Shown here in pieces: positions 846 to 29,036 of a DNA stretch of 32,466 nt (within the stretch, counting starts at the first letter, position 1; each line of letters starts with the position of its first letter). Source of the stretch: Lacunisphaera sp. GTDB taxonomy: Bacteria; Verrucomicrobiota; Verrucomicrobiia; Opitutales; Opitutaceae. The stretch covers positions 1 to 32,466 of the forward strand of contig JAQSDJ010000067.1 of NCBI GenBank assembly GCA_029945855.1, written 5' to 3'. The translations under genes were made by a program, and so were the position numbers. The notes under the pieces are model-generated. The model searched no databases. It was not told where the DNA came from and saw only the letters and a program-made list of their open reading frames with translations.

Positions 846-3800
846 TCAGGCCCGGCGCTGGCGCCACGCCGTCAAGCCGAGCAAACCTAGACCCAGCGCG
901 AGCAGCGCATACGTCGAGGGCTCGGGGATGCCGGCAAAGGTGGTCAGGTTGAGCATGAGCAGGGTATCTCCGCTCGCCAGGCTGACGCTGAAGGTGCCGA
1001 GGGCGAGACCGGTGCCGACATCCGTCTGGAATTGCGAGACATCGAGGGTGAAGGCATTCGGATCGAAGCCCGCGCCATTGGGCGTAATGCCCAGGGCGGA
1101 CATCAGCATCCAGCTGTAGGTGGCATTGGGCCCGATCGCGCCGGCCAAAATGCCCGGGTTGCCATCCGCGCCCAGGGTGATGGCCCGGAGGGTAAACTTG
1201 TTCGCGGTGGTGGCGGTGATTTCCAGCGTGGTGACGCTGCCGACGTTGACATGGTCGGAAACGAAGTTCCCGTTGTGCGCGAGGTTCCACTCATAGGTGC
1301 CGCCCGGCGCGAGGGTGAGGTGGCTGGAGAAATCCATGAACCCGATCTGCCCGCCCAGGGCGGAGCCGGGGGAGAGGGTGCCGCCGGTGCCGATGGTCGC
1401 CATGTTCAGCTGCCCGGTGCCGGCGAGGCGCCCGCCGTTGTCGATCACGATGGGATTATAGAGGTAAGCGTTGTCCAGGGCCAGCGTGCCTCCATGGACC
1501 CAGACGGTGGGGGTGCTGCTCTCCACGTAGAAATCGTTGCCGAGGACGAGCGTGCCCTGGTTGACCTGCAGGCTGACCTCGGGGGTGCCGGCGAGCGTGG
1601 CCTCGGTCGTGCCGTGATAGAAAAACATGCCACCATCATCCAGGCGCAGGTTGCCAGCGCCGTTTTTGACCAGACGGAGATTATCATCGGGGTAGGTGGC
1701 ATCCGATCTGAATTCGCCGCGGAACTTGCCGTCCAAGGATTGATTGATCGTCAGGACGGTGTTGGTCAGTGAGGCATGTAGATAAGCGTAGTCATACTCA
1801 TCCTTCGTCATGAGGCTGCCGATGACCGGGGCGGCCGTCTGGAAGTTGATCGATCCGCCGGAATAGCCGAAGCCGAGCGGGCCGGTGCCGAGGGCGGTGT
1901 TGCTGCCGACGTTGATGGTCGCACCCGAGGCGACATACACGCCGCCGCTGAAGGAGTTGTTGCCGGAGAGACCGAGGGTGAAGCCGCTGCCGCTGTCCTC
2001 ACCGACGTAGAGTTCGCCAGTGCCGGAGATGCCGCCGGCGAGGGTGAAGCTGTTGTCTCCGCCCACGTTCAGTTCGGTGCCCAGATTGATGTTATTGGGA
2101 ATGATCAGGCCGCTGGCGACGGCGCTGAGCCGCGGGGTCGGAGCTTCGCCATCGTTGCCAGACCATTCGGCGGGCAGAGTCATGCCCGTGACCTCGAGGG
2201 TGCCGGAGCCGAGGGCATTGGTCGTCGCCCCAACATTGCTCTGCCCCACCATGAGCTGGCCGCCATAGAGCATGATGGGGCCGGTGAGCGTGCTGTTGTC
2301 GCCGGTAAGGGCGACCTTGGAATAAGTCTGGTCGAGGTAATCCCCGAAAGTGGCGGGGGAGGAGGGGTCGCCGATATGCACGGCCCGGGACCCAGCCAGG
2401 GTGCTCGCGACCTCAAGGGCGCCACCCTTGTAGCCGGCGAAACGATAGGGGGCGGTGCCTCCGCCGGCCGGGGTGATCGTGCCGCTGAGTGTGAGGCCGG
2501 GCCCCTCGACTCCCTTGGTGGACGTGCCGAGGTAGAGGGCGTTGGTGAAGAGGCTGAGGTCGATGGGCGCGGTGTTTGGGAGGATGTAGTAACCGCCATT
2601 GCCATCAAAGCCAACCGCACCTACGGAGGAAGTGTTGATCTTCAACAAGCTGTTCAGGACGAAGTTGGCATCAGACTGGTCACCCCAGATTTCAAACCCG
2701 ACGTAGCCGCCCGGGTTGATGGTGACATTGCGCGTGCCGCTCGGGAAGGTGCCGGAGCCTCCGCTCGAACCGAAAATCAGGGCGGAATTCGTCACCGACG
2801 TGCCACCGGTGTAGTTGTTACCAGTGTAGGTCAGCCGGAGGGTGAGCGGCATAGCCGCGGGAGAGTCGACCACGAGCGCGCGCGTGCCCGTCAGCTGGGA
2901 ATCGACCTGCAGCCAGCCGCCACCGCCGCCGAAGCGGTATTCGGATCCTTGGGGCGTGATGGTGCCGGTGAGGATCGCGCTGGTGGCGGAGCCGAGCCGG
3001 GCGGTGGCGCCGAACGCGGTGCCGGTCGGAACGGCGGACAGGTCAATGCTGTCCGTGAAGATGTTGGGGGTGGATAGTTCGGGATCGGTATCGAGCCCGA
3101 TCGTGCCGATCGTGACCGCCTTGTTGAAATCGTTGAGGAAATACGACTGCACGCTGTTGGTGTAGCTGCTGTCGCCGAAGCCGATGTAGCCGTTCGTCCC
3201 CGCGGTCAGGTGGCCGACCGAGCTGGAATCGAGGTTGTTGCTGGGGATGGCATAGGCATTGCCGAAGATGAGCACGCCGTTGGTTGCCGTAGTGCCGCCG
3301 GTATAGCTGTTGCTGCCGGTCAGGACGACCGCGCCAGAACCGGTGACGTTGAGGCTGCGGGGGGTGCCGGCCTCGCCGCCCGTCTGGATGATGTTGCCCT
3401 CGAGGAACAGGGGCTGGCCGTTGGACTGAATGGTGGTGTTGGCCGTGAGCTCGATCGTGCTGTTGCCTTCGCCGGAATAGCCGATGTGCAGCTCGGTTTC
3501 GTTCTGGGTCGAGATCAGCCCGTTGCTGACGACGTTGTTTTCCAGATATACCGGGTAGTCGTCGTAGTAGTCAGACCTTGTCACCAGCGTGCCGCCATTG
3601 AACGTGAGGGTGCCGGTGCCCACGGGGTCGGAGTAGGAATCATATCCGGAATTGATGACGACCTTGCCTTGGGAAAGGACCAGGCCGCCGCCCCAATAAT
3701 TATTGGAGTAATTTCCGAGCACCAAGGTGCCGGCGCCGGTCTTGGTGATCTGGTAGTCATGGCTGACGTAGCTGAAGCTTTCGTTGGTGTAGTAGTCCCC

Positions 3801-4226
3801 GATCCCATCCTCGATCTCAAAGGTGCCGTTCGCAATATTCCAGGTCTGGCTGGCCTCCAGTTGCACACTGCCGGCGAGGGCGGAGTGCACCGCGGCTCCG
3901 GGGGAGTAGACGATGCCGCCGGCGCCGAGGTGGGTGGTGTCCGCGTAACCCTGCAGATAATACGGCCGGGTGTTACCGCTGAAGGTCAGCTGGTTGACGT
4001 ATATTTCGGAGTAGGAAACGTATGTCTTCGGCACGTTGCCGAAAATCACCCGGGTGTTGACCACATCCTCCAGCGGCGTCACGCCGTTGAGCCAGTTGCC
4101 CATTTCATTCCAGTAATTGGAGCTGGCAGCGCCGGTCCACGTATAGGTGACAATTTGAGCCCGGCTGGACGCGATTGAGCCCAAGGCGACGAGCAGGACG
4201 ACTAGTAGATTTATGCGCCGCTTCAT
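846..4226 (-). CDS. PEP-CTERM protein with autotransporter-associated beta-strand repeats
   Basis: The 1126-residue exported protein starts at the ATG at 4226 (MKRRINLLVVLLVALGS) with a clear signal peptide ending near SSRAQ. The body is Gly/Asn/Thr/Ser-rich and carries repeated units of the TIGR02601 type, recognisable by LTGSNSYTGGTTATNG, LTYTGNNYTGGTSVTN, LSGNNSFSGGVYVASG and KTGAGTLVLGNYS, which fold as a beta-helix passenger. The last 27 residues are a PEP-CTERM sorting signal: IPEPSTYALLALG, a hydrophobic helix, then WRQRRA. Such proteins are sorted by an exosortase in the inner membrane and exposed on the surface or in exopolymer. No exosortase is in this window, and no autotransporter barrel is present. 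The frame stays open upstream of 4226 but only across the divergent genes, so that extension is rejected. Confidence 0.9.
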   Translation of the reverse strand: MKRRINLLVVLLVALGSIASSRAQIVTYTWTGAASSNYWNEMGNWLNGVTPLEDVVNTRVIFGNVPKTYVSYSEIYVNQLTFSGNTRPYYLQGYADTTHLGAGGIVYSPGAAVHSALAGSVQLEASQTWNIANGTFEIEDGIGDYYTNESFSYVSHDYQITKTGAGTLVLGNYSNNYWGGGLVLSQGKVVINSGYDSYSDPVGTGTLTFNGGTLVTRSDYYDDYPVYLENNVVSNGLISTQNETELHIGYSGEGNSTIELTANTTIQSNGQPLFLEGNIIQTGGEAGTPRSLNVTGSGAVVLTGSNSYTGGTTATNGVLIFGNAYAIPSNNLDSSSVGHLTAGTNGYIGFGDSSYTNSVQSYFLNDFNKAVTIGTIGLDTDPELSTPNIFTDSIDLSAVPTGTAFGATARLGSATSAILTGTITPQGSEYRFGGGGGWLQVDSQLTGTRALVVDSPAAMPLTLRLTYTGNNYTGGTSVTNSALIFGSSGGSGTFPSGTRNVTINPGGYVGFEIWGDQSDANFVLNSLLKINTSSVGAVGFDGNGGYYILPNTAPIDLSLFTNALYLGTSTKGVEGPGLTLSGTITPAGGGTAPYRFAGYKGGALEVASTLAGSRAVHIGDPSSPATFGDYLDQTYSKVALTGDNSTLTGPIMLYGGQLMVGQSNVGATTNALGSGTLEVTGMTLPAEWSGNDGEAPTPRLSAVASGLIIPNNINLGTELNVGGDNSFTLAGGISGTGELYVGEDSGSGFTLGLSGNNSFSGGVYVASGATINVGSNTALGTGPLGFGYSGGSINFQTAAPVIGSLMTKDEYDYAYLHASLTNTVLTINQSLDGKFRGEFRSDATYPDDNLRLVKNGAGNLRLDDGGMFFYHGTTEATLAGTPEVSLQVNQGTLVLGNDFYVESSTPTVWVHGGTLALDNAYLYNPIVIDNGGRLAGTGQLNMATIGTGGTLSPGSALGGQIGFMDFSSHLTLAPGGTYEWNLAHNGNFVSDHVNVGSVTTLEITATTANKFTLRAITLGADGNPGILAGAIGPNATYSWMLMSALGITPNGAGFDPNAFTLDVSQFQTDVGTGLALGTFSVSLASGDTLLMLNLTTFAGIPEPSTYALLALGLGLLGLTAWRQRRA

Positions 4227-4355
4227 AAGGACTTCTGTAAAAGAGAGGGAAGAGTATCTCAAGCCCGATATTGCAACCTGCTGGAAGCAGCGGCCTGGGA
4301 CAGGTCCGGTCTGCTTCGGCCTTGCCGAGGCGGGCGCAGGCGCAATCCTCGGCAT

Positions 4356-4844
4356 ATGGCAGTTTTCGGCTCTCTCCCCACGGTGCGCGACCAGCTGGCG
4401 CATGATCCAAGATTCACGGCGGCACTTGATTATGTCGCAGAGGCCCTGCAGGCGGGCTCTCCCGTGCACCGGCGCATCGGCGGGGTGGCGGTGGGCGTCA
4501 CGGACCGGGTCGAACTGGCCGGCGGGGCCTTCGCGCTCGAGCAGGCTTATCAGTCCAAGCCACGCGCCGAGGCTTTCCTTGAATCCCATCGCAAATACAT
4601 CGACGTGCAGGTTGTCGTGGCGGGCGAGGAGATCCAGGAGGTGGTCGACATCGCGCGGATGGCGGTGGACGCGCCCTACGACGCCGAGCGCGACCTGATC
4701 AAATACCTCGATTGCCGCGACACCTCGCTGCTCAGCGCCCGGGACGGCCTGGTGGCCGTTTATTTCCCGGCGGACGGGCACATCTCCCGCGCGGTGGGTC
4801 CGGCGGTGCTCGTGCGCAAGACCGTGGTCAAGGTGCCGGCTTGA
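4356..4844 (+). CDS. YhcH/YjgK/YiaL family protein (DUF386, cupin-like)
   Basis: The 162-residue protein matches the YhcH/YiaL/TabA family in size and in its core motif ESHRKYIDVQVVVAGEE (residues about 76-92), followed by the D-x-A-Y-D region and the C-terminal YFPADGHISRAV segment with a conserved Asp and His, then VRKTVVKV. Family members are small double-stranded beta-helix proteins, several linked to sialic acid or sugar catabolism, often metal-binding. The substrate cannot be read from sequence. It is divergent from the PEP-CTERM gene with a 129-bp gap. No Shine-Dalgarno precedes the ATG. Confidence 0.88.
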   Translation: MAVFGSLPTVRDQLAHDPRFTAALDYVAEALQAGSPVHRRIGGVAVGVTDRVELAGGAFALEQAYQSKPRAEAFLESHRKYIDVQVVVAGEEIQEVVDIARMAVDAPYDAERDLIKYLDCRDTSLLSARDGLVAVYFPADGHISRAVGPAVLVRKTVVKVPA

Positions 4845-4846
4845 CC

Positions 4847-4897
4847 GTAGGTCGGGCTTTACGCCCGACAGGATGTCGGGGATAAACCCCGACCTAC
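4847..4897. repeat. 51-bp palindromic repeat, copy 1
   Basis: The element starts GTAGGTCGGGCTTTACGCCC and ends with the inverted arm ATAAACCCCGACCTAC. The two arms pair over GTAGGTCGGG/CCCCGACCTAC, with inner hairpins CGGGCTTTACGCCCG and CGGGGATAAACCCCG. A 47-bp copy in reverse orientation lies at 28215-28261; the two differ mainly by a 4-base loss at the centre. It sits between the YhcH-like stop (2 nt before) and the RlmJ start (10 nt after), where it could also act as an mRNA hairpin. This is a REP/MITE-type dispersed palindrome. Confidence 0.9.
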
Positions 4898-4907
4898 ACG
4901 GAATCCC

Positions 4908-5777
4908 TTGAACTACCGGCATCACTATCACGCGGGCAACTACGCGGACGTCTTCAAGCACACGCTCCTGCTGTTGCTCCTGCGCGCGATGCAGCGCAAG
5001 GAGAAGGGTTTTCTCTATCTCGACACGCATGCCGGGCGCGGGGGCTATGATCTCTCTGTGCCCTCGGTCCTGCCCGACGGCCGGTCGCGCGAGCCCGAGC
5101 ATCCCGCGGGCATCGGCAGGCTTTGGGGCGCGGCGGACCTGCCGCCGGTGCTGCAGGATTTCGTGGCGCTCGTGCGGCGGTTCAACGACCGCAACGGCGC
5201 CACGGGCGAGGAGCTGAAATATTATCCCGGTTCGCCGTGGATCGCGAAGCTGCTGCTGCGGCCGCAGGACCGCCTGGCCCTGTGCGAGCTGCGCGAGGAC
5301 GATGCCGAGGCGCTGGATTTTGAATTTGCCCGGGAATCACGCGTGACGGTGCAGGTGCTCGACGGCTACACGGGATTGAAGGCCCTGCTGCCGCCGCCGG
5401 AAAAGCGCGCGCTGGTGCTGATCGACCCGCCGTTCGAGGCCAAGGGGGAGTTTGCCGCCGTCGCCCGCGGCCTGAAGGACGCGCTGAAGCGTCTGCCCGG
5501 GGCGGTGATCGCCGTGTGGTATCCCATCACGGAGCGGGCGCGCACGGCGGAGTTTCACCACGCGCTGCTCGAACTGGCCGCGCCCACGCTGTTCGCTGAG
5601 CTGACCATCGCGGGCGAAGAATCGTTGGTGCGGATGAAAGGCTGCGGGCTGCTCATCCTGAATCCGCCCTGGCAGATCGACTGGGAGATCCGGGCGGTGC
5701 TGCCGGCGCTGCGCGACCGGCTCAGGCTGGACGCGGGGGCGGCCACGGCCTGCGACTGGCTCGTGCCGGAGAAGTGA
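4908..5777 (+). CDS. rlmJ: 23S rRNA (adenine(2030)-N(6))-methyltransferase
   Basis: The 289-residue protein follows RlmJ along its whole length: N-terminal NYRHHYHAGNYADVFKHT, the SAM-binding FLYLDTHAGRGGYDL (residues about 35-49), KYYPGSPWIAKLLLR (104-118), the catalytic LIDPPF (171-176, with Phe in place of the commoner Tyr of DPPY), AVWYPIT, and LLILNPPWQ near the end. RlmJ methylates A2030 in the 23S rRNA using SAM. The start is a TTG at 4908; no ATG lies near the conserved N-terminus. E. coli RlmJ is about 280 residues, so this one is full length. It begins 10 nt after the palindromic repeat. Confidence 0.95.
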   Translation: MNYRHHYHAGNYADVFKHTLLLLLLRAMQRKEKGFLYLDTHAGRGGYDLSVPSVLPDGRSREPEHPAGIGRLWGAADLPPVLQDFVALVRRFNDRNGATGEELKYYPGSPWIAKLLLRPQDRLALCELREDDAEALDFEFARESRVTVQVLDGYTGLKALLPPPEKRALVLIDPPFEAKGEFAAVARGLKDALKRLPGAVIAVWYPITERARTAEFHHALLELAAPTLFAELTIAGEESLVRMKGCGLLILNPPWQIDWEIRAVLPALRDRLRLDAGAATACDWLVPEK

Positions 5778-27658: not shown

Positions 27659-28492
27659 TCAGAGCAGTTCCACCGCGTCGCCGACGCGCAAGGTGCCGCG
27701 CTTGGTCTCGTGGATGAGGTTGACGCCGAAGTTGACGTCGGTCGGGTCGGCCGCGTCGCGGCGGTAGGTGGCGAAGGTCTTCAGCGGCTCCTTGCCGCGC
27801 ACCGCGGTTTCCTGGTCGGTGGTGGTGACGGGGCAGCGGGCGCACAGCCCGGCGTTGCGCAGCACGACGTCACCGATCCGGATTTTGGACCACGCATCCT
27901 CGCCGTAGGGCGGGCAGCCGGCGACGACGAGGTTCGGGCGGAAGCGGTTCATCGGCAGCGGCTCCTCGTGCTTGGCCACCAGGCGGTCGTTGAGATCGTC
28001 GAGGGAAGCCTCGCTGATGACGAGCAGGGGATAGGCATCGGCGAAGCTCACGACATCGCCCGGTCGCGCCGTGGGCTTGACGATCGGGCGCTGGTAAGCG
28101 CCGCCCATGCGCACGAGGCGCAACGGCAGGTCGAGGAAATCGGAGAGCCATTCCGCAGGCTCGTCGCCGCAGTCGTCCGCGGTCATGGTGCTTTTCCAGA
28201 CGATGACGCGGCGGGTAGGTCGGGGTTTATCCCCGACTGTCGGGCGTAAAGCCCGACCTACAGTCACTGATCCATGACCGTGCGAGGAAAGGGTCAGGTC
28301 GTCCTTGTTCAGCGCGGTCCCGATCAGGGCCATGCGCGGGTGGGTGCGCTGGGTGAGGAACTTCCCGTCTTCCGCGGTGACGACCATGAAGCGCCGGTCA
28401 CCGACAAAACCGTAGTCGTCCAACTCGGCGGCGGACACGCTCAAGCCGCGGCAGGATTTGACGGGGTAGATATGGAGCGCGGACAGATGCAT
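27659..28492 (-). CDS. MOSC domain protein (YcbX type)
   Basis: The 277-residue protein has the MOSC N-terminal beta-barrel (IYPVKSCRGLSVS, GFVGDRRFMVV) and MOSC domain (MNRFRPNLVVAG, WSKIRIGDVVLRN, then CARCPVTTTDQET with Cys217 and Cys220, and VNFGVNLI). YcbX-type proteins bind the molybdenum cofactor via a conserved Cys and reduce N-hydroxylated compounds. Unlike YcbX, no ferredoxin domain follows. Residues about 78-93 (VGRALRPTVGDKPRPT) are encoded by a 47-bp dispersed palindrome inserted in frame in a surface loop region, apparently tolerated. Confidence 0.9.
   Translation of the reverse strand: MHLSALHIYPVKSCRGLSVSAAELDDYGFVGDRRFMVVTAEDGKFLTQRTHPRMALIGTALNKDDLTLSSHGHGSVTVGRALRPTVGDKPRPTRRVIVWKSTMTADDCGDEPAEWLSDFLDLPLRLVRMGGAYQRPIVKPTARPGDVVSFADAYPLLVISEASLDDLNDRLVAKHEEPLPMNRFRPNLVVAGCPPYGEDAWSKIRIGDVVLRNAGLCARCPVTTTDQETAVRGKEPLKTFATYRRDAADPTDVNFGVNLIHETKRGTLRVGDAVELL
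28215..28261. repeat. 47-bp palindromic repeat, copy 2, inside the MOSC gene
   Basis: This is the reverse-oriented copy of the element at 4847-4897, starting GTAGGTCGGGGTTTATCCCC and ending CGTAAAGCCCGACCTAC. It lacks 4 bases at the centre relative to copy 1. It lies within the MOSC reading frame and encodes residues about 78-93 without a stop. Confidence 0.9.
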
Positions 28493-28498
28493 GGGGGT

Positions 28499-28644
28499 AG
28501 AAAGACTGAAAGACTGAAAAGCTGAAAGGCTGAAGAGAAGTCAGCAGTTTGATAGAGGAAACAGCACAATAGCACTTCGGTGCTTCGTGCCGCTCGGTTC
28601 ACCCAATGGGTTCAGCCTTCCAGTCATTCGCCCCTTCAGCCCTT
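28499..28644. repeat. GACTGAAAG-word inverted repeat between TIGR03067-like and MOSC genes
   Basis: The left arm (28499-28536) repeats AAAGACTGAAAGACTGAAAA and on; the right arm (28610-28644) is GTTCAGCCTTCCAGTCATTC plus CCCTTCAGCCCTT and contains the stop codon of the TIGR03067-like gene. In the centre, AGCAC-TTCG-GTGCT (28571-28584) is a hairpin with a stable TTCG loop, which may end the transcript or mark the element core. Confidence 0.8.
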
Positions 28645-28998: not shown

Positions 28999-29036
28999 GC
29001 CGGAAAGCTGAGAGCTGAAAGCTGAAAGCTGAAGGA
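28999..29036. repeat. Tandem AGCTGAAAG words
   Basis: Four near-copies of AGCTGAAAG/AGCTGAGAG lie in tandem immediately upstream of the TIGR03067-like start codon. They belong to the word family of 20701-20790 and 28499-28644 but no opposing arm is present. Confidence 0.7.

Follow-up and report, generated by a model that had tools for sequence, protein, structure and literature searches.

GTAG palindromes, often present as dimers, have been described inside genes where they encode residues of the host protein (Di Nocera et al., 2013; PMC3733652). The main text of that study gives O. terrae (Opitutus terrae), placed there in the Verrucomicrobia, the largest number of intragenic GTAG repeats, both uvrA genes being included, and reports that the recB genes of two Xanthomonas carry different REPs at about one site. 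It also assigns the RPE-4 and RPE-6 elements of R. conorii to the CGTC repeats, a class apparently without a dedicated transposase. The Rickettsia palindromic elements (RPEs), as outlined in a review (PMC10969869), are inserted in frame in unrelated genes, are open for translation and have a size of approximately 150 bp. RAYT/REPtron systems are described in PMC8266576 as having a GTAG tag, a hairpin, the pairing of a REP with an inverted REP and a transposase gene flanked by REPs; the dinucleotide cleaved by the E. coli TnpA-REP transposase is CT, which lies beside the REP.

The element considered here lies in a window of 32,466 nucleotides from Lacunisphaera sp., within the gene for a MOSC protein. 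In common with the intragenic GTAG REPs covered in the main text of Di Nocera et al. (2013) it is a pair of GTAG palindromes within a gene and encodes residues, and it has all of the above marks of the RAYT/REPtron systems, including CT beside the element, although here these are read from sequence alone. It shares with the RPEs a palindromic structure and a translatable, in-frame position in genes that are unrelated to one another, but differs from their size of some 150 bp in being 47 bp long and encoding 16 residues. In-frame GTAG REPs, and REPs at the same site in Xanthomonas recB, are already known. What appears to go further is the recurrence of hits to the same loops of MOSC, mnmA and nnrD across species and the presence of an eroded copy in the distant genome G139; the passages of Di Nocera et al. 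(2013) consulted describe neither an eroded copy nor a loop that has taken three families within one genus, and none of MOSC, mnmA, nnrD and mpl appears in them as a host. A partial search of the literature, supplementary tables excluded, yielded no report of different REP families taking one loop in the species of a genus. Elements named ‘extragenic’ are in this way linked to changes in the proteins that housekeeping genes encode, and the genus offers a countable outcome, the same loops with different REP families in around twenty related genomes, with which REP site choice, mere loop tolerance and the joining of REP-encoded peptides to proteins become testable.

The MOSC element and its repeat family

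The MOSC protein gene (MOSC_N + MOSC) occupies positions 27659..28492 on the minus strand (277 aa, stop included), and Pfam places MOSC_N at residues 3-121 of the protein and MOSC at residues 147-275. The insert, which falls within MOSC_N, is a head-to-head REP doublet of 47 bp at 28215..28261 (no strand assigned) with GTAG at both outer ends. It is built of two opposed 23-base units, each consisting of GTAG and a hairpin with a stem of 7 bp, separated by a 1-base spacer. The G-type half (28215..28237, plus strand) shows 0 mismatches to GTAGGTCGGGGTTTATCCCCGAC and the C-type half (28239..28261, minus strand) 0 mismatches to GTAGGTCGGGCTTTACGCCCGAC. The minus-strand reading frame of the gene is open across the whole element and, as 47 bp is one base short of 16 whole codons, one flanking base fills the last codon, giving 16 MOSC codons at 28214..28261 (minus strand) that encode residues 78-93, VGRALRPTVGDKPRPT. 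The sequence-only reading had proposed just such an in-frame insert of about 16 residues with no stop, and this is borne out. On the coding strand CT lies directly upstream of GTAG in the MOSC copy, and the opposite end has GG, neither CT nor TT. An AlphaFold model of the MOSC protein (mean pLDDT 36.9) was too poor for use; the PDB relative mARC1 aligns on either side of the insert and has no alignment over residues 72-103.

An intergenic copy of the doublet (copy 1; 51 bp, no strand assigned) lies at 4847..4897, 2 bases past the stop of the ORF at 4356-4844 and 10 bases ahead of the ORF that starts at 4908. The match between the two copies, which had been noted from the window itself, extends to complete identity of the halves; the spacer alone differs, with 1 base in the MOSC element and 5 in copy 1. 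It had also been suggested that this difference is a 4-base deletion that may have restored the frame. This was not upheld, as spacers over 75 doublets in the genome range from 1 to 25 bases (2 bases in 29 of the 75, 1 base in 4) and a deletion cannot be inferred as an event. A minus-strand ORF of 1418 aa at 846-5102, apparently spurious in its N-terminal part, overlaps both copy 1 and two plus-strand ORFs. Near the element its G+C content is highest at the first position of codons, and it was dropped as a host of copy 1.

The window lies in G000, a 5.0-Mb draft genome of 330 contigs, and the repeat family of the MOSC element is referred to as family A. A chance palindrome can be ruled out by half-site counts in the genome, where the half-element pattern has 142 exact matches and a control pattern 0, by shuffles of the window, in which GTAGGTCGGG (at most 1 mismatch) occurs 10 times against 1.82 expected and 0 of 100 shuffles reach 10, and by folding, which for the MOSC element and copy 1 is better than that of shuffles on both strands (z -5.9 to -8.1). 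Among the matches listed, with at most 4 mismatches per half, 109 distinct elements were found in 110 scanned loci, bearing out the dispersal that the sequence-only reading had expected; this survey rests on 100 listed places for each of 142, 161 and 160 matches and may miss divergent copies. Head-to-head doublets account for 75 of the 109 listed elements, single halves for 31 and other arrangements for 3, and no 30-base flank is common to any two of them. The base preceding GTAG is T at 126 of 158 half-sites (intact GTAG, at most 2 mismatches) and CT precedes it at 46 of the 158, compared with 5.1% in the flanks (p ~2e-22). Since CT is cut by the E. coli transposase beside the REP, this bias fits a junction made by an enzyme.

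The family has the properties of GTAG REPs and BIMEs in that GTAG lies next to a short hairpin, copies are numerous and dispersed, and halves are paired in opposition. The MOSC copy is not extragenic, being intragenic as are 15 others of 101 elements tested. This does not exclude it from the class, in which intragenic copies are counted in the main text of PMC3733652, and judged by these features the MOSC element is a GTAG-class REP doublet, that is, a non-autonomous repeat. An enzyme that could act on it is encoded by a minus-strand frame at C125:24000-24761, an uninterrupted gene for a 170-residue RAYT that matches NCBIfam NF047646 REP_Tyr_transpos with 85.4 bits (cut-off 80). Family A REPs are present on both sides of this gene, as in a REPtron, and it is the one of six Y1_Tnp matches in the genome that is tied to family A REPs. 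On the published biochemistry, it is probably the C125 RAYT that moves them.

A codon-usage score trained on the window genes was applied to the 101 of 109 elements that could be tested, the other 8 lying too near an end. Neither flank was coding in 66 cases, one flank in 17, and both flanks were coding on the same strand in 18. Sixteen of these 18 elements are in frame and open, the exceptions being those in L131 and L175; since no more than 2 in 9 of the possible combinations of phase give this result by chance for any one element, p is 3e-9. The preference of genic copies for open frames is thus clear among the elements tested, as the sequence-only reading had anticipated. Two phases are used, reading VGR in 13 elements and RSGF in 3, and the third opens with a stop. 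A screen on GC3 minus GC2 gave 18 candidates above 0.25, or 17 without the ORF at 846-5102, and 16 of the 17 were retained by the codon-usage test, which left out a single half-site in L160. Host genes above the curated cut-off (NCBIfam/Pfam) are those for MnmA, NAD(P)H-hydrate dehydratase, an ABC transporter ATPase, LysE, a SpoU methylase, Rsm22 and an exosortase, together with an amine oxidase-type oxidoreductase and, bearing two inserts, a transketolase-lipoyl protein; below it are UvrA, seen as a partial piece, and a Mur ligase that is closest to Mpl. Three look-alike proteins of one genome have an in-frame family A REP at a matching place (L163 1501-1558 and 3555-3612, L198 314-371). Two of the three also contain the peptide VGRDRLIPPSDAPRRDQRSRPT, perhaps another repeat, and a Pfam search of one of them returned no match.

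Host loops in related genomes

MOSC matches were obtained in 121 of 200 genomes searched and the loop was aligned in 73 sequences (74 with one near-duplicate). The closest relatives have no REP in this loop. The nearest, G187, has a MOSC protein 82-84% identical to that of G000 with PRNASAGV at the position of the insert, and the L067 locus of a Lacunisphaera MAG agrees with it in both loop and identity. These residues are absent from G000, in which the native loop has been replaced and not interrupted, and no clean empty site was found for the MOSC or the nnrD insert among the relatives compared. Because the REP is absent from the MOSC genes of the closest relatives, its insertion most likely postdates the split between G000 and G187. 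Matches to the 16-residue REP peptide in the 73 proteins number 16 in G000, 15 in G060, 13 in G125 and 10 in G139, with at most 7 in the other 69; a 45-residue query over 252 family genomes found 12 genomes and further eroded inserts may exist. The exact half-site pattern of family A was present in 42 of the 252, with 124 half-sites in G000, 32 in G060, 17 in G125, 2 in G187 and 1 in G139.

In G060 and G125, two members of another genus, the MOSC loop carries a family A doublet in the same orientation and frame as in G000. This agreement, together with the eroded loop of G139 in the same register, could be explained by a single REP insertion into MOSC that predates the separation of the genera, followed by loss in most lineages. 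Such an origin is very improbable and was rejected on the divergence of element and flanks and on the tree. The element of G000 is 96% and 94% identical to those of G060 and G125, whereas the rest of the gene is only 69% and 68% identical and 46-47% of the shared 4-fold sites differ. In the tree G000 groups with the REP-less G187 (support 97/91), G125 and G060 form a clade of their own and G139 falls elsewhere. The junction of the element in G125 and G060 is, moreover, two codons further on than in G000. Taken together, element-versus-flank divergence, the shifted junction and the tree point to three acquisitions in the MOSC loop, one of them probably common to G060 and G125.

In G139 the loop is no longer a REP at the DNA level, with 31 of 48 bases matching the G000 element, and it retains the register and 10 of the 16 residues of the REP peptide. 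Third codon positions account for 12 of its 17 base differences, more than an even spread would give (p 0.002). We read this loop as an old REP insert that would have aged as coding sequence. Selection on its peptide is only suggested, as G+C-rich codon usage gives a like bias to third positions. It had been stated beforehand that related MOSC proteins with the same loop encoded by non-repeat DNA would imply an ancestral sequence, and the distant G139 comes near to this; the tree and the unmutated state of the G000 REP oppose common ancestry all the same.

mnmA, nnrD and mpl were compared across 21 genomes of the genus. With MOSC they make four host genes compared in relatives, a small and biased sample in that all were picked for a REP in G000, and tolerance of the loops would by itself make recurrence likely. 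The mnmA loop contains family A in G000 and a family B REP, beginning GTAGGAGGGGC, in G187, where two of the 24 family B half-sites of the genome are in mnmA; the junctions in these two genomes are not the same. Family D, beginning GTGGAGCGCG, occupies the loop in G113, G227, G231 and G232 (6, 25, 15 and 3 exact half-sites per genome) and may be one inherited insertion in these species. A close variant of family D is found in G093, further palindromes in G071, G161, G175, G037 and G230, and short tandem repeats in G130, and the loop looks native in 5 of 20 genomes (G198, G147, G228, G236 and G229), leaving G233 and G234 unclassified. Hairpins with a stem of at least 8 number 23 in mnmA orthologues against 5.0 in codon shuffles, with corresponding values of 13 against 14.0 for MOSC, 5 against 4.8 for nnrD and 4 against 6.6 for mpl. 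Among the four genes a general excess of hairpins is therefore limited to mnmA, with most of the 7-bp family A stems falling below the threshold of this count. Of the 23 mnmA hairpins, 13 lie around reference residues 135-152 and 8 around 346-349, the other 2 being at different places. At the second mnmA loop (about residue 346 when the G000 protein is numbered from its first Met; L209 and other loci) the palindromes vary by species, that of G000 being GTAGGGGCGTCGCTTGACGACGCCC; the motif search for this loop missed it in 12 of 20 genomes.

In nnrD, family A is present at one place in G000 and G232, with spacers that are both of 13 bases and differ in sequence, and may be one inherited insertion. 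In G187, G230 and G113 the palindrome is of the F type, and the native turn is gone in G232, G187, G230 and G113, all of which bear palindromes. The sisters G000 and G187, despite their different families, have a right junction in common, CTAC followed by codons for YYS. In the nnrD genes of G187, G230 and G113 (L233, L236 and L244) the conserved VLKGP strand has an F-type palindrome on either side, as might be seen if the two halves of a doublet bracketed it. In all loci examined family C was seen once, family E at 3 places, all in mnmA, and family F at 5 places, all within three nnrD loci.

mpl has family A at one place in G000 and G227 (L255 and L256). As the spacer has the same length of 10 bases in both, the insertion was probably inherited once, and mpl was withdrawn as a separate recurrent hit. 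The mpl REP is absent from G187, the genome closest to G000 by MOSC; a loss from that genome, or else gene transfer, would account for this. The mpl loop of G175 is unrelated and longer, and no REP-like insert was found in the remaining 16 of 19 rows. Stops within the regions compared, with mnmA cut from the first Met and nnrD and mpl taken as matched, were all at or after the end (1 of 20 in mnmA, 2 of 19 in nnrD and 0 of 19 in mpl). The comparison shows the loops of MOSC, mnmA and nnrD, with mpl excluded, to have been hit by what appear to be separate events in other species.

Origin of the loop inserts

The explanation that we favour, with a probability of roughly 80%, is that a GTAG REP doublet moved by a RAYT was inserted into MOSC after the lineages had split and was kept by the tolerance of the loop. 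The C125 RAYT would move family A REPs as single-stranded DNA, and the insertions would land widely, selection retaining those that are intergenic or that lie in an open phase in a loose loop. One such copy would have entered the variable MOSC_N loop after the split from the nearest sampled relative, with the native residues being lost during or after insertion. The allele could survive because the REP lay in a stop-free orientation and phase in a loop able to tolerate 16 foreign residues. The protein would go on working and selection, rather than target choice, would pick the loops. The same filter of open phase and tolerant loop may cover both the copies in other housekeeping genes and the repeated hits in the loops of other species. 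The sequence-only reading took the MOSC copy as ‘direct evidence’ that the elements move and become protein; that they are dispersed, in frame and translated in silico stands, and the remainder was overstated, the evidence on movement being comparative throughout. Replacement of the loop in MOSC and nnrD is not predicted by simple insertion and counts against this explanation, as do the GG at the far end of the MOSC copy and the two exceptions among the 18 elements with coding flanks. As native residues are lost in these two genes and not clearly in mpl and mnmA, the final allele would not always be that of a clean insertion.

This last point bears on a possible, if less likely, course of events in which a loop once hit becomes a target and later families displace earlier ones through RAYT recombination or gene conversion. 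It would accommodate the mnmA loop, where three families that are multicopy in their own genomes (A, B and D) occur alongside other palindromes, as well as the presence in nnrD of either family A or an F-type palindrome and the missing native residues. The right junction common to G000 and G187 in nnrD would fit exchange better than simple insertion. The same data can, however, be accounted for by permissive loops hit repeatedly from the native state, the mnmA loop still looks native in the five species named above, and the mnmA junctions of G000 and G187 are unlike. With the withdrawal of mpl and the nnrD junction pointing opposite ways, the odds of such replacement are unchanged. On this view certain loops in the genus would be long-lived docking sites in which active REP families are exchanged, the MnmA loop for example being rewritten while old inserts are kept coding.

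It is unlikely that the REPs were retained as useful, with the loop peptide or an RNA hairpin selected for a function in folding or in pausing of expression. The residues and third-position changes of the G139 loop could be taken in favour of this, but G+C-rich codon usage would also yield such third-position changes, and for all four genes compared there are relatives that do without the insert. Least credible of all is an artefact of assembly in which a short dispersed repeat misjoined two contigs. REPs are natural points for a misjoin in a draft of so many contigs, yet one MOSC gene lies on both sides of the element with frame and order correct, and the arrangement recurs in other genomes. 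Insertion after the split and retention by loop tolerance remains the reading that we prefer.

Repeats of a different kind were seen close to the MOSC gene, where degenerate short tandem runs of the ctgaaag type lie around it at 28500-28536 and 29003-29036 of the window. By eye, similar short runs are present in the MOSC loops of G130, G093 and G016 (L039, L040 and L088) and in the mnmA loop of G130 (L222), and a second type of repeat may enter the very loops that are taken by REPs.
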